Shown: positions 42,089-54,654 of the stretch, in pieces
Layout: each line of letters begins with the position of its first letter
Numbering within the stretch: position 1 is the first letter of the stretch
Assembly (NCBI RefSeq): GCF_016742135.1
Contig: NZ_JACVCG010000001.1
Coordinates: 372,001-436,000 of the forward strand
DNA from: Brevundimonas sp.
GTDB lineage: Bacteria; Pseudomonadota; Alphaproteobacteria; Caulobacterales; Caulobacteraceae
DNA: 64,000 nt
Direction of reading: 5' to 3'
Translations under genes and position numbers: made by a program
Notes under the pieces: generated by a model
Seen by the model: the letters and a program-made list of their open reading frames with translations, nothing else
The model's database searches: none
What the model was told of the DNA's origin: nothing

Positions 42089-43210
<1,122 letters not shown>

Positions 43211-43225
43211 TTAAGAGGCGGTTAG
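43211..43225 (-). promoter_or_regulatory. CtrA-like box upstream of ccrM
   Basis: TTAA-N7(GAGGCGG)-TTAG on the plus strand; read towards ccrM it is CTAA-N7-TTAA, one base off the consensus TTAA-N7-TTAA. It lies 46-60 bp upstream of the ccrM start and 69-83 bp before the murC start, so it could serve both divergent genes. Confidence 0.7.
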
Positions 43226-46099: not shown

Positions 46100-47041
46100 A
46101 TGAACCGCCCCCTGAAAGACCTGCATGTCGCCGTCCTGATGGGGGGGCTGTCGGCCGAGCGCGAGGTGTCGCTGAACTCGGGCAAGGGCTGTGCGGACGC
46201 GCTGGAGGGGCAGGTGGCCCGCGTCAGCCGCATCGACGCCGGGCGGGATTTGGCCAATGTGCTGGGCGGGCTGGTTCGGCCCGATGTGGTGCTGAACTGT
46301 CTTCACGGTGCCTGGGGCGAGGACGGCTGCGTCCAGGGCGTGCTGGAGACGCTCAATATTCCCTATACCCATTCGGGGGTGCTGGCCTCCGCGCTGGCCA
46401 TGGACAAGGCCAAGTCCAAGGCCGTGCTGGCGGCGGCGGGCATTCCGGTGCCGGGCGGCGGCCTGTTCGACCGGCACGAGGTCGCGCGAGACCACGTCAT
46501 GGTCCCGCCCTATGTGATCAAGCCCAATGCCGAGGGATCTTCGGTCGGCGTCTTTCTGGTGACCGAGGGCGCCAACCGTCCGCCGCAGGAGGTCGGGGCC
46601 GACGACTGGGCCTATGGCGAACAGGTGATGGTCGAGCCCTTCATTGCGGGGCGCGAGCTGGCGGTGGCCGTGCTGGGTGAGGCGGACGGCCCGCGCGCCC
46701 TGACCGTCACGGATATCACGCCGACCAAGGGGTTCTATGACTATGAGGCCAAATATGCACCCGGCGGCTCGGTGCACGAACTGCCGGCCCGGCTGAAGCC
46801 CGATGTGTTCGAGATGGCGTTGCGTCTGTCCGAGCGGGCGCATGAGGCGCTGGGCTGCCGTGGTGTGTCGCGATCCGATTTTCGTTATGACGATGTTAAG
46901 GACGTTCTCGTTCTTCTGGAGGTCAACACCCAGCCGGGCATGACCTCGACCTCGCTTGTTCCCGAGCAGGCCGCCCATGTCGGCATAGGGTATCCGGAAC
47001 TGGTCAGGTGGATGGTGGAGGACGCGTCATGCCCGCGGTAG
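46100..47041 (+). CDS. ddl: D-alanine:D-alanine ligase
   Basis: A 313-residue ATP-grasp enzyme that joins two D-Ala residues for the pentapeptide tip. Motifs: [17 protein letters not shown] near the start, [29 protein letters not shown] (ATP/peptide site), SRSDFRYDD and [19 protein letters not shown] near the end. It overlaps ftsQ by 13 bp. Some clusters call it ddlB; here only one copy is seen. Confidence 0.96.
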
Positions 47042-49409: not shown

Positions 49410-49484
49410 GCAATCCGGAAGCGTGGGTCACGAGCCGTGGTCCGCGTCACGTATTGTCAAATCACTTGGTTGGGGCATCACAAC

Positions 49485-52400
49485 ATGCTGTTGAAGCGCA
49501 AATATCTCTTTGGAACGACCATCCTGGCCGGCGTCATGATGGCGTCGGCTCCGGCCCTGGCTCAGACCGCCACGCAGAATCCTCAAGATCCGGAAGCCGG
49601 AACGCGGGTTGAAGAAATCGTCGTGACCGGTTCGCGTATCCGTCGCGACCCGACCAACGCCCCCACCCCGCTGATCCAGGTCGAGCGTGAAGCGCTGCTG
49701 ACCACCGGTCAGTCGACCGTGATCGACTACCTGGCCACCATTCCGGCCCTGTCGAACTCGCTGGTTCCGTCGGACACGACCGGTTCGGGTCTGAACGACG
49801 GCGGTCTGGACTTCGCCAACCTGCGCTCGCTGGGCACCGGCCGTACCCTGACCCTGGTCGACGGACGTCGCCACGTCGGTTCGTCGCGCGGCACCCTGTC
49901 GGTTGACGTCTCGTCCATTCCTCGTCTGCTGATCGAGAACATCGAGATCATCACCGGCGGTGCCTCGTCGATCTACGGCGCCGACGCTGTGGCCGGCGTG
50001 CTGAACTTCATCCTGCGCGACGACTTCGAGGGCCTGGAACTCGACTTCAACTACGGTCAGATCAGTCAGAGCGGTAAGGCCACCCGTCGTGCCTCGGCGC
50101 TGATCGGCACCAATCTGATGGATGACCGTCTGAACCTCTATGCCTTCGCGGAGTACGAAAAGGCTGACCAGGTCACCTCGTTCGACGTCGACTGGCTGAA
50201 CCGTGATTATCGCTTCATCGGCATTGATGCCGACCCCACCACCGTCCCGTCGGACGGCTTCCTGGACAACTTCCTGTTCAGCGATCTGAACCGGATGGAT
50301 CGCCCGCGCTGGGGTCAGACCACCCTTTACAACACTCAGCAGCCCAGCCCGCTGACCAATCCGCTGATCCCGTGGCCCACCCGTACCGGCGGCCTGTTCG
50401 CCTGTAACGTGGCCAGCATCGACGCCAACTGCTACCCGGTCGCTCCCGGCAAGACTTTCTGGTATCCGGAAGGCACCGGCACGGCCCGCTTGGCCAACTT
50501 CGGCCAGCGGATCGGCAATACCGGCCTGTCGCGTCCGTACAACATCGGCGGTGACGGCGTCAGCGCGGCCGACTTCTCGACCGCGTCGCGCTTCCCTGAA
50601 CTCGAATCGCAGCGCTATCAGACCGGCTTCACCTTCGCTGTCCTGCCCAACGTCAATCTGCGCGGCGAGTACAAGTTCGTGAAGGAAGATGCGTTCGATA
50701 TCGCGCAGCCGACCTTCTTCGACATCAACCTGCTGGACATCACCTATGGCGCCGGGGCGACCAACCCCATCCGGGGCACCAGCTCGTTCGACCTGCGCTG
50801 GTCGGACAACGCCTTCCTGCCGCAGAACGTGAAGGACGCGATCGCTGCCAACACGGCGACCAACTATGCGGCGCCGACCGCCAATGCTCCGGGTGCCGCC
50901 CTGGGCGTGTTCGCGGCCCCCTATGCCCGTCACGTGATGTTCGGGCCGGACCGCTTCCAGGACAACCGCCGCGAGATCGAACGTTATGTCGTGGCGCTGG
51001 ACGGTGATCTGGATCAGCTGCTGTTCTTCCGCAATGTGGGCTGGGATGTCGGCTACACCCGCGGTGAAATGAACAACGTCAACCAGGAGCGCGGCGTCGA
51101 TGTGCTGCGCTTCGCCCTGGCCGCGGACGCTGTGGTCGATACCGCCGGTATCGTCAATGGCCGTCCGGGCGAGATCGTCTGCCGCGCCCAGCGTATCGCT
51201 GCCGCGGGTGGCACTCCCTACGACTACAACTGGGGTTATGCCGACCTTCGTGACTATGCCACGGGTGCTGCGGCGCTGGCCGAATGTACCCCGCTGAACG
51301 TCTTCGGCGCGGGTAATCAGTCCGAGGAAGCCCTGGCCTATGTCGACGCCTCGATCCGCGTCCGCGAAAAGAACATCTCGGAGCAGACCCTGGTCAACGT
51401 CTCGGGTCAGCTCTGGGACTTCTGGGGTGCCGGTCCGATCGGCGTGGCCCTCGGCTATGAAAAGCGTCGTGAGTTCGCCGAAGGTATCGGCCGCAGCGCC
51501 GACACCGGCGACCGCTGGCTGTTCCTCAACACCGGCCCGGACTTCATCGGTGCCGAGTATGAAAGCGACGAGTTCTACGGCGAAGTGGCCTTGCCGCTGT
51601 TCCGCGACTCCTTCCTGGGTGACTATGCCGAACTGAGCGGGTCGTACCGCAAGTCGGACTACACCACCGTGGGCGAGGTCGAGGTCTGGGGTGTCAACCT
51701 GGTCTACCGTCCGATCCCGGACATCGGTTTCCGCACCAGCTTCAACACCTCGGTGCGCGTGCCGAACCTGGCCGAGAACTTCTCGCCGGCGACCCAGACC
51801 TTCTGGAACGGCGTGGTTGACCCCTGCTCCACGGCGCAGATCACCAACCCCGCCCTGTCGTCGGAAGTCCGTGCCAACCGCGTTGCCAACTGCAACGCCC
51901 TGCTGGCGCAGTACAACGCTGCGAACGGCACCTCCCTGTCCTATGACTTCGGTGGTACGACCCTGACCACCGCCGACGACTACCTCCCGAACTACACCTC
52001 GGGTGTCGCCGGCGTGAACGCGGGTAACCCGTTCCTGGAACCGGAAGAGTCGGAATCCTTCACCTTCTCGGTGATCCTGCGTCCGCGCATGTTCCCGAAC
52101 CTGTCGATGGTGCTGGACTATTATGACATCGAGGTCACCAATGTGATCTCGACCGTCACGGCGGCCCAGGCGGCGGCCAACTGTGTGAACGGTCCGTCGC
52201 TGAACCTCGCGGCCTGTAACACCATCTTCCGCAACGACCCGAACCCGGGCCGTGAGTTCTACATCGGTGGCCCGTCGGGCGACCCGATCGGGGGCTTCAT
52301 CCAGGGCTCGATCAACTACGCCAAGCTGGCGACCGAGGGTCTGGACTTCGGCCTGAACTACAATCTGGACACTTATGATGTGTTCGGTCAGGACTGGGGC

Positions 52401-52841
52401 CGGTTCTCCTACAGCATCAACGGCCTGTGGCTGATCCGCCAGGAGTCCTACCTCGACTCGGCCAACCCTGAGGCGCACACCTCGTCGGCGGGCAACCTGT
52501 ACTTCCCGCGGGTTCGCTACACCTCGTCGCTGACCTACGCCCCGAACGATGTGTGGAGCGTGAACTGGACGGCCGACTGGCAAACGTCGCAGCACATCTT
52601 CAACCCCTTCTCGATCGCGTCGAACATCGACAATATCCCGACCGACGCGCTGAAGACGGGTGCCTTCACCCGGCATGACTTCACGGTCCGTTGGAATGTG
52701 CGGGACGACCTGTCGGTCCGCGCCGGTGTGGTCAACGCCTTCGACAACGAGCAAAACCCCTATCTGCAGGGCACGCTCTACAACAACTTCGATGCCTGGG
52801 GCCGTCGCTTCTTCATCGGTCTGAACTATCGTCCCTGGTAA
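49485..52841 (+). CDS. TonB-dependent outer-membrane receptor
   Basis: A 1118-residue receptor beginning at ATG 49485 (MLLKRKYLFGTT); the frame also contains an upstream ATG at 49437 that would place 16 residues before the signal peptide. The signal peptide ends at APALAQ. TonB box EEIVVTGSRI follows at about residue 38, then the plug domain (TVIDYLATIPALSNSL, IIEIITGGASSIYGADAVAGV-type core ENIEIITGGASSIYG) and a long 22-strand barrel, ending FIGLNYRPW with terminal Trp. Its substrate is unknown. Codon use favours CGT/GTC-type codons more than neighbours, suggesting high expression. It lies between ftsA and ftsZ and carries its own terminator. Confidence 0.92.
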   Translation: MLLKRKYLFGTTILAGVMMASAPALAQTATQNPQDPEAGTRVEEIVVTGSRIRRDPTNAPTPLIQVEREALLTTGQSTVIDYLATIPALSNSLVPSDTTGSGLNDGGLDFANLRSLGTGRTLTLVDGRRHVGSSRGTLSVDVSSIPRLLIENIEIITGGASSIYGADAVAGVLNFILRDDFEGLELDFNYGQISQSGKATRRASALIGTNLMDDRLNLYAFAEYEKADQVTSFDVDWLNRDYRFIGIDADPTTVPSDGFLDNFLFSDLNRMDRPRWGQTTLYNTQQPSPLTNPLIPWPTRTGGLFACNVASIDANCYPVAPGKTFWYPEGTGTARLANFGQRIGNTGLSRPYNIGGDGVSAADFSTASRFPELESQRYQTGFTFAVLPNVNLRGEYKFVKEDAFDIAQPTFFDINLLDITYGAGATNPIRGTSSFDLRWSDNAFLPQNVKDAIAANTATNYAAPTANAPGAALGVFAAPYARHVMFGPDRFQDNRREIERYVVALDGDLDQLLFFRNVGWDVGYTRGEMNNVNQERGVDVLRFALAADAVVDTAGIVNGRPGEIVCRAQRIAAAGGTPYDYNWGYADLRDYATGAAALAECTPLNVFGAGNQSEEALAYVDASIRVREKNISEQTLVNVSGQLWDFWGAGPIGVALGYEKRREFAEGIGRSADTGDRWLFLNTGPDFIGAEYESDEFYGEVALPLFRDSFLGDYAELSGSYRKSDYTTVGEVEVWGVNLVYRPIPDIGFRTSFNTSVRVPNLAENFSPATQTFWNGVVDPCSTAQITNPALSSEVRANRVANCNALLAQYNAANGTSLSYDFGGTTLTTADDYLPNYTSGVAGVNAGNPFLEPEESESFTFSVILRPRMFPNLSMVLDYYDIEVTNVISTVTAAQAAANCVNGPSLNLAACNTIFRNDPNPGREFYIGGPSGDPIGGFIQGSINYAKLATEGLDFGLNYNLDTYDVFGQDWGRFSYSINGLWLIRQESYLDSANPEAHTSSAGNLYFPRVRYTSSLTYAPNDVWSVNWTADWQTSQHIFNPFSIASNIDNIPTDALKTGAFTRHDFTVRWNVRDDLSVRAGVVNAFDNEQNPYLQGTLYNNFDAWGRRFFIGLNYRPW

Positions 52842-52861
52842 GGATTTTCCGATCCAGAACG

Positions 52862-52894
52862 GAAAGGGCGGCTCGCGAGAGCCGCCCTTTTTCT
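52862..52894 (+). terminator. Rho-independent terminator of the TonB receptor gene
   Basis: AAAGGGCGGCTC pairs with GAGCCGCCCTTT around a short GCGA-type loop, followed by a T-rich tract. It starts 20 bp after the stop and should insulate ftsZ from receptor transcription. Confidence 0.9.
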
Positions 52895-52975
52895 TTGCCC
52901 CTATCCGGCGATCATGGGTCGCCCTCCCCAGAATAATGCGTGCAGGGAGCATCCGACCCCTCTGGCGCGGTCCCC

Positions 52976-52980
52976 GACTC
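52976..52980. promoter_or_regulatory. GANTC site upstream of ftsZ (first)
   Basis: GACTC, a CcrM target, 124 bp before the ftsZ ATG and 11 bp from the first CtrA-like box. Methylated GANTC sites in the ftsZ promoter stimulate its transcription in Caulobacter. Confidence 0.6.
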
Positions 52981-52990
52981 AGTCTATGCG

Positions 52991-53005
52991 GTAACCACCT
53001 GTTAA
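52991..53005 (+). promoter_or_regulatory. CtrA-like box 1 upstream of ftsZ
   Basis: GTAA-N7(CCACCTG)-TTAA, one base off the TTAA-N7-TTAA consensus, 99-113 bp before the ftsZ ATG. CtrA represses ftsZ in Caulobacter swarmer cells. Confidence 0.65.
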
Positions 53006-53022
53006 GGCTTACGGGTGTTCTA

Positions 53023-53037
53023 TTAACCCGCTCATAA
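53023..53037 (+). promoter_or_regulatory. CtrA-like box 2 upstream of ftsZ
   Basis: TTAA-N7(CCCGCTC)-ATAA followed by C, one base off consensus, 67-81 bp before the ftsZ ATG. Together with box 1 it gives a two-site arrangement 32 bp apart, about three helical turns. Confidence 0.65.
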
Positions 53038-53044
53038 CCAATGC

Positions 53045-53049
53045 GATTC
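53045..53049. promoter_or_regulatory. GANTC site upstream of ftsZ (second)
   Basis: GATTC, a CcrM target, 55 bp before the ftsZ ATG and just after CtrA-like box 2, in the predicted promoter or leader. Confidence 0.6.
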
Positions 53050-53103
53050 GGGGGTTTGCAGTGGTTTCCGGGAGCGGGCTCGGATTGAAGGTCGGAAAAT
53101 CAC

Positions 53104-54654
53104 ATGTCGCTGTCGCTGGTGCGTCCTGAAGCCACGGAATTGAAGCCCCGCATCGTCGTGTTCGGCGTCGGTGGCGCGGGCGGAAACGCCGTCAACAACA
53201 TGATTGATGCGGGTCTGGAAGGCGTCGATTTCGTCGTCGCCAATACCGACGCCCAGCATCTGAGCTTTGCCAAGACCGACCGCCGGATCCAGCTGGGCGA
53301 AACCATCACCCAGGGCCTGGGCGCGGGCGCCCACCCCGAAGTCGGCATGAATGCCGCCGAGGAGTCCGCCGACGAGATCGCTACGCACCTCGAGGGGGCG
53401 CATATGGTCTTCATCACCGCCGGCATGGGCGGGGGCACCGGAACCGGGGCCGCGCCGGTGATCGCCAAATGCGCCCGTGACCGCAATATCCTGACGGTCG
53501 GTGTGGTGACCAAGCCCTTCACCTTTGAAGGCCGCCACCGCATGCGTCTGGCCGAGGCCGGCATTGCCGAGCTGCAGCGCTATGTCGACACCCTGATTGT
53601 CATTCCGAACCAGAACCTGTTCCGCGTCGCCAATGAGCGCACGACTTTTGCCGATGCCTTCGGCATGGCCGACCAGGTGCTGCACTCGGGCGTGCGCTCG
53701 ATTACCGACCTGATGATCCTGCCCGGCCTGATCAATCTCGATTTCGCCGATGTGCGCGCCGTGATGTCCGAAATGGGCAAGGCCATGATGGGCACGGGCG
53801 AGGCCGAGGGCGACGATCGCGCCCTGATGGCGGCCCAGAACGCCATCGCCAACCCGCTGCTGGACGAAACCAGCCTGAAGGGGGCCAAGGCCGTGCTGGT
53901 CAACATCACCGGCGGCATGGACATGACCCTTCTGGAGGTCGACGAGGCCGCCAACGCAATTTCGGCCGAGGTCGACCCCGACGCCAACATCATCTTCGGC
54001 GCCGCCTTCGATCCGGCGCTGGATGGCAAGATCCGCGTCTCCGTGGTCGCCACCGGTATGGACGAGGGCGTCATGGCCCAGACCCCGCCCTCGACTCTCT
54101 CGCGCCCCGTCGCGCCGACCCGTCCGGCGGCCCCCGTGCGTGAACCGGTCCGTCAGCCTGAGCCGGTCATCCGTTCGGCCGAGCCGGCCCCGGTGACCCC
54201 GACCTTCCAGCCGACGGTCCGCGCGCCCGAGCCGCGCGTGACCCCGCAGCCCCAGGCTCCGGAGCCGGTCATGAAGGCAGAAGAGCCGCGCACGCTTGAG
54301 CCCATCGTCGACCCCTGGGTCGAGGAGTATGAAGCCGACCATACGCCTCGCGCCGCGACGCGCCCCGTCCAGGGTGACCTCTATATGGAGCCGGCCCGCG
54401 AGCCTGCGCGCGCCGAACGCCAGCCGGAACCCGAGCCCGAGTGGGACGACCGTGATCACCACCGCAAGTCGGGCTGGAGCCTGTTCGGCCGCAAGCGCGC
54501 GCCGGAGCCCGCCCCCTATGCGCCGGAAGCCCGGCCCGAGCCCCGGTCCATGCGCCTGTCTGGCAACTCGGCCCTGAAGACGCCCGAGCCGGAAACCTCC
54601 GCCGAGGAAGATGAGTTGGAAATCCCTTCGTTTCTGAGGCGTCTGGCCAACTGA
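53104..54654 (+). CDS. ftsZ: Cell division GTPase FtsZ
   Basis: A 516-residue tubulin homologue that forms the Z-ring. The nucleotide loop GGGTGTG is at residues 109-115; [19 protein letters not shown] and the T7 loop INLDFADVR are conserved. After the GTPase core (about residue 320) comes a long Pro/Glu/Arg-rich linker of about 180 residues, then the C-terminal peptide [11 protein letters not shown] that binds FtsA and others. The long linker is typical of Caulobacterales. Upstream are two CtrA-like boxes and two GANTC sites. It is separated from ftsA by the TonB receptor gene and so relies on its own promoter. Confidence 0.98.

Follow-up and report, generated by a model that had tools for sequence, protein, structure and literature searches.

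The ftsZ promoter of Brevundimonas: a conserved GANTC and CtrA box as a probable switch, and a second GANTC that most likely belongs to a predicted leader hairpin

Which of the motifs crowded in front of a cell division gene are regulatory sites, and which are kept for another reason? The question arises at the ftsZ gene of a Brevundimonas sp. with a 2.6 Mb genome (G000), in a stretch of 64,000 nucleotides referred to here as the window. The gene occupies 53104..54654 on the + strand (TIGR00065, 415 bits, cut-off 295). A first-pass annotation had placed two CtrA-like boxes and two GANTC sites within 130 bp of its ATG (at 53104), and all four positions were confirmed: GACTC at 52976-52980 (GANTC #1), GATTC at 53045-53049 (GANTC #2), box 1, GTAACCACCTGTTAA, at 52991-53005, and box 2, TTAACCCGCTCATAA, at 53023-53037. 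Both boxes differ from TTAA-N7-TTAA at one position, and 32 bp separate their starts. From this layout the annotation proposed that CtrA represses ftsZ and CcrM methylation activates it, as in Caulobacter, and that two CtrA dimers could sit on one face of the helix. The work on CtrA and ftsZ is said to go back to Kelly in 1998.

CtrA boxes that match with at most one mismatch number 4 in the 64-kb window against 0.46 expected, and 0/100 shuffles contain 4. Over the whole genome (2.6 Mb), 69 places carry a one-mismatch box and 70 match a reversed-pattern control; a lone one-mismatch box is therefore no evidence of a site. Calculated post hoc, two boxes in 130 bp have a P of ~6e-6 at the genome-wide rate, and two GANTC a P of ~0.012 at the window rate. 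GANTC is scarce in the window, with 82 present and 278 expected from shuffles. A cluster of three one-mismatch CtrA-like boxes in ~130 bp was also seen elsewhere in this genome, at G000:C2:156731-156862, among the matches listed.

The window's four one-mismatch boxes comprise the two at ftsZ, one directly upstream of a ccrM homologue (43211..43225) and one within a ddl-like gene, upstream of an ftsQ-like ORF (46885..46899, TTATGACGATGTTAA). In C. crescentus, CtrA boxes are tabulated at the same genes: Table 2 of PMC3751295 gives TTAACCGCCGATTAA for ftsZ, TTATGACGACATTAA for ftsQA and TTAACGGCCCGCTAA for ccrM. The window's ccrM homologue (42089..43165, - strand) lies 10 kb upstream of ftsZ; its RAMA domain scores above cut-off, and its best match is the CcrM model NF050803 at 630 bits, under the cut-off of 830. 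The genome also encodes CtrA (NF045991, 415.8 bits, cut-off 350), GcrA (profile match above cut-off) and SciP (DUF1153).

Between ftsA and ftsZ lies a gene for a 1134-aa TonB-dependent-receptor-like protein (49437-52841). It is followed by a terminator-like hairpin at 52861..52892 (+ strand; 14-pair stem, z -4.13, then a T-rich stretch), which a pattern scan for terminators did not list. Since this gene and hairpin separate ftsA from ftsZ, ftsZ probably depends on its own promoter. By a crude end-of-gene pattern, the gene before ftsZ has a receptor-like C-terminus in 55 of 116 genus genomes and an ftsA-like end in 8, with 53 undecided.

The promoter was compared within the genus and across the family. 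The genus set started from 131 genomes; 3 without an ftsZ match and 12 with partial or split matches were dropped, leaving 116 promoters, that is, the window and 115 of the 130 other genomes searched. From other genera of the same family came 54 of 56 places among the matches listed, and 52 of these promoters were parsed for box, CGACTC and TTAA. The best 8 named matches to FtsZ are 7 Brevundimonas and 1 MAG labelled Bordetella. That MAG (L005) has a Brevundimonas-type ftsZ locus and promoter, so its label or its binning looks wrong.

GANTC #1 is embedded in CGACTC (52975..52980), a published motif present in 115/116 genus promoters and predicted to be the CcrM methylation site for GcrA. The composite, in which CGACTC-N4-TA and box 1 are followed by a TTAA at 31-33 bp, is complete in 114/116 and occurs once in the window's genome. 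The distance from the start of box 1 to this TTAA is 32 bp in 69 promoters, 33 in 24 and 31 in 21. Box 1 reads GTAA/TTAA in 112 of the 114 full-pattern promoters, as in the window, whereas C. crescentus ftsZ has TTAA/TTAA (PMC3751295). The best box 90-175 bp upstream of ftsZ has one mismatch in 116/116 genus promoters and is a perfect TTAA/TTAA in 35/54 from other genera, where CGACTC precedes 51 of the 52 parsed boxes. In L238, 21 bases are identical to the CtrA box that PMC3751295 tabulates for C. crescentus ftsZ, so box 1 can be regarded as the orthologue of that known CtrA box. Such conservation is strong evidence for putative ftsZ promoter sites.

The TA at 52985..52986 (+ strand) stands a fixed 4 bases from CGACTC in 114/116 promoters. 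It was taken as positions -12/-11 of a -10-like element. With this assignment the predicted ftsZ start falls at ~52997 and is covered by box 1, and the G that opens GANTC #1 falls at ~-21. Site 2 (box 2), GANTC #2 and the hairpin described below are then predicted to lie within the transcribed leader.

This arrangement has close counterparts. The C. crescentus ftsZ promoter likewise has CGACTC upstream and a CtrA box just downstream (PMC3708114, PMC3751295). Conservation of CGACTC in ftsZ promoters, including that of B. subvibrioides, has already been drawn, and in C. crescentus CcrM activates ftsZ via CGACTC even with the CtrA and DnaA sites removed (PMC3708114). In that species one cluster of promoters, carrying a GANTC between -10 and -35, is turned on 40-60 minutes into the cycle, and CtrA half sites that cover the -10 act as repressor sites (PMC4287350). 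The C. crescentus ctrA P1 promoter also combines a GANTC shortly upstream with a CtrA site near the -10/start, and is activated and then closed; there the GANTC sits at -29 or -28, with a TTAA half at -14 (PMC4287350), whereas the window's ftsZ promoter has a full CtrA box and its positions are predicted. DnaA boxes are reported at C. crescentus ftsZ (PMC3193534) but NTCCACA/TGTGGAN is absent from the 400 bases upstream of the window's ftsZ; a loose DnaA 7-mer occurs in 13/116 genus and 17/54 other-genus promoters.

Comparison thus lends good support to the core reading, in which CcrM and GcrA would activate ftsZ and CtrA would occlude its promoter; most of it was already known. For GANTC #1 together with box 1, the dual control proposed in the first pass is supported, on orthology, near-universal conservation in the genus and the presence of genes for the regulators.

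The role of CtrA may be less simple than closure. A C. crescentus strain that has less CtrA showed moderately lower ftsZ promoter activity (PMC3751295), which makes CtrA as a pure ftsZ repressor uncertain and would suit a double promoter of the ctrA type. There, CtrA at box 1 would repress the GANTC promoter and activate a second promoter starting near site 2. The ctrA P1/P2 pair operates so, and full boxes located near -39 are activating sites (PMC4287350). A simple sigma-70 scan, however, found no consensus promoter and no promoter-like -35/-10 pair in the ftsZ upstream region, and the same scan also misses the first promoter. We regard a double promoter as improbable at this locus and retain the single GANTC #1 promoter with CtrA at box 1.

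The second box behaves differently from the first. Its second half, ATAA, is found in 96 of the 114 full-pattern genus promoters. In other genera a downstream TTAA occurs at 31-32 bp in 32 of 52 parsed promoters, 0 of them with ATAA. Across the 116 genus genomes, a full box 2 and the leader hairpin are both present in 103 and both absent in 10, with 3 discordant. These distributions bear on the idea that there are two complete CtrA boxes, both bound on one helix face for cooperative repression, with box 2 selected for CtrA. The constancy of the site 2 TTAA at 31-33 bp in 114/116 genus promoters, and of this first half at 31-32 bp in other genera, speaks for it; the second half, however, comes and goes with the hairpin and is not retained outside the genus. 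Furthermore, over 78 unique rows the box 2 spacer is better conserved than that of box 1 (1.38 against 0.95 bits), a difference that CtrA by itself would not account for, and one-mismatch boxes are not enriched genome-wide. Two selected boxes therefore seem rather doubtful. The conserved 31-33 bp spacing is compatible with the two dimers on one face envisaged in the first pass; it does not demonstrate them. By comparison of genomes, site 2 is a conserved putative TTAA half-site, complete as a CtrA-like box only in Brevundimonas, where its second half tracks the hairpin.

The hairpin in question is predicted directly 3' of site 2, at 53038..53064 (+ strand), with arms CCAATGCGA and TTTGCAGTGG and a G-rich loop. 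The genus consensus on this side of site 2 is CCAATGCGATTCGGCGGGG-N-TTTCGCATTGG; the 5' arm of the genus-consensus hairpin ends in GCGA and its loop is TTCGGCGGGG. GANTC #2 (53045..53049) consists of the final two stem bases and the first three loop bases. The two arms of one genome pair better with each other than with arms taken from other genomes (7.24 vs 6.58, sd 0.07), and 0/1000 permutations reach the own-arm score; this test used 75 unique sequences from 102/116 parsable promoters, with relatedness uncorrected.

Three alignments were made. A1 holds 88 of 94 non-redundant leaders, six divergent ones being excluded; A2 holds 53 of 85 listed hairpin stretches, those with one common spacing plus the shorter window copy; and A3, fitted to the structure, served for no counts. 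In A2 (53 rows), 91.6% of cells are paired and covariation scores 0.162 against 0.081, a value that 0/500 shuffles reach, relatedness being uncorrected. Sliding the partner arm lowers both pairing and covariation score. RNAalifold predicts seven pairs from A2. A covariance model matched the ftsZ leader in 13/13 genus genomes, the window leader at E 2.3e-5, and in these 13 genomes found no other strong place except the same repeat on the opposite strand in one genome. The inner five pairs are complete in 76/104 hairpin-bearing genomes.

Some structure tests were weak or negative. Changes on both sides occur in only two of nine pairs of A2, which 89/500 shuffles equalled, and one outer pair is unpaired in 24/53 rows. 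RNAalifold on the 88-row A1 predicted zero pairs. The hairpin copy in the window is itself imperfect and short-looped (isolated fold z -1.31), and the window's leader taken whole gives a fold no more stable than those of shuffled sequences (z +0.71, 151/200). Aggregated over the genus, the fold z of the hairpin stretch (-70 to -28) is -1.47; two of three control stretches give -1.21 and -1.07, so similar that these scores fail to single out the hairpin. In G086 the covariance model finds the ftsZ leader at E 0.26 only, no better than background. The hairpin model was also run on 36 more loci, including six divergent promoters of the genus, and gave nothing significant (best E 0.08). An Rfam search of 52700-53300 returned no match at gathering score and five below threshold, all over the upstream terminator-like hairpin. 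A search of titles and abstracts in the open-licence literature found no ftsZ leader hairpin in Caulobacterales.

Other features of the leader were recorded. An outer stem, CCCGCTC/GAGCGGG, is perfect in the window, L082, L084 and L085; it was rejected, since genus-wide own arms scarcely beat permuted ones (13/500; 21/500 with variants only). A candidate 5'-terminal stem at 52996-53017 (CACCTG/CGGGTG), in which the spacer of box 1 would pair with the bases preceding site 2, is listed as terminator-like by the scan; 1/500 permutations scored as high in the genus and 120/500 in other genera, and it has up to 9 pairs in some genomes (L160, L164, L249). Tandem GGTCGGA-like repeats precede the start codon (53079-53103) and are also seen in most aligned genus leaders of A1. 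In L219, L236 and L242, from other genera, hairpins with G-rich loops (GGCGGGT or GGTGGCT) were noticed by eye at a similar place before ftsZ; the Brevundimonas hairpin model does not detect them.

An inverted repeat next to a promoter could also be read as DNA, as the operator of a dimeric regulator. Its arms are palindromic and lie within the promoter region, the scarcity of other strong model sites in the 13 genomes is what a single-target operator would give, and the outer arm pairs in A2 include non-standard pairs. The inner stem, however, points the other way. Arm sequence varies with pairing kept, the pair at columns 5/27 of A2 occurring as UA, UG, AU and GC, and the inner five pairs hold 23 G-U cells and just 2 non-pairs in 53 rows. 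Both patterns fit RNA better than a sequence-reading protein, and we consider an operator very improbable.

If the hairpin is an RNA element, is GANTC #2 nevertheless a second methylation site? Among the 104 hairpin-bearing genomes GANTC #2 is lost in 11 and GANTC #1 in 0 (Fisher p 0.0007, relatedness uncorrected); another count adds one loss, in L196, where a chance GANTC nearby had masked it. The losses amount to approximately eight changes on a rough tree built from 200 bp of ftsZ, the stem being retained. In five of them the final stem base has changed from A to G, so that the pair survives as G-U.

These losses weigh against the view that both GANTC are regulatory and that GANTC #2 is a true second CcrM/GcrA site gained in Brevundimonas. 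The view draws on the 93/104 hairpin-bearing genomes that keep the site, and on its fit to YGAKTCK in 95/116 genus promoters and 1/54 others. It also accords with the GcrA/CcrM study of B. subvibrioides, a member of the same genus as the window's organism by its FtsZ relatives (PMC7987155). There ftsZ is a predicted GcrA target and satisfies RNA-seq or ChIP criteria, with lower expression without ccrM, and GcrA regulation of ftsZ is likeliest in Brevundimonas, with a posterior above 0.7 vs about 0.3 in Caulobacter. Against this, the predicted start places GANTC #2 inside the leader and outside the -10 to -35 interval, and the ccrM-linked expression effects could stem from GANTC #1. A gained second site is, in our judgement, unlikely.

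The published score itself may be affected. It counts YGAKTCK anywhere from -200 to +100 (PMC7987155), whereas the Brevundimonas-specific match in the window is the GATTCG/GAATCG of the hairpin. GANTC #1 matches YGAKTCK on the other strand in 115/116 genus promoters and at least 38/54 others. Since the GANTC #2 match is genus-specific and that of GANTC #1 widespread, the Brevundimonas excess may come from the hairpin. GcrA/CcrM regulation of B. subvibrioides ftsZ may well be real, through GANTC #1.

Conservation by itself is thus not enough to assign GANTC #2 or the second half of box 2 to CcrM or CtrA. As judged from sequence comparison, GANTC #2 is most likely part of the ftsZ leader hairpin and not a dedicated methylation switch. 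The symmetry of two boxes plus two GANTC that the first-pass annotation had seen is thus not upheld.

The account that we consider fairly probable is a Brevundimonas form of the Caulobacteraceae ftsZ promoter, with CcrM/GcrA acting on GANTC #1, CtrA closing the promoter at box 1, and GANTC #2 a by-product of the RNA hairpin. By analogy with C. crescentus, GANTC #1 would be methylated by CcrM and used by an activator that depends on this methylation, most probably GcrA, to drive ftsZ transcription early in S phase. Once abundant, phosphorylated CtrA would shut the promoter from box 1, which covers the predicted start, and another CtrA bound to site 2 on that face of the DNA might assist it. The co-varying leader hairpin would act on ftsZ mRNA stability or translation. 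The core switch is already known; a second CtrA-like box and the predicted leader hairpin set the window's promoter apart from that of C. crescentus ftsZ.

A further proposal, put forward tentatively, is that the hairpin is a lineage-specific ftsZ-leader RNA element with a co-varying stem and a near-invariant G-rich loop, UUCGGCGGGG, which evolves as a unit with the second CtrA half-site upstream of it and sets FtsZ output post-transcriptionally. The loop could be read by a protein or by a C-rich small RNA, for example GsrN; GATTC would be an accidental methylation site, and the published GcrA rewiring of ftsZ would partly reflect it. In GsrN, six cytosines stand in tandem and the targets are G-rich; one of them, the katG leader, resembles the ftsZ leader in carrying G-rich leader sequence in Caulobacteraceae (PMC5869019); the main text of that paper makes no mention of ftsZ.

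The wiring of ftsZ is central, since in C. crescentus without CcrM, in rich medium, raised ftsZ transcription suffices to bring back viability (PMC3973325). Comparison of 116 Brevundimonas with 54 other Caulobacteraceae promoters allows the switch, CGACTC and box 1, to be told apart from its add-ons. A conserved GANTC may be retained for RNA structure, which calls for caution in motif-based claims of regulatory rewiring.
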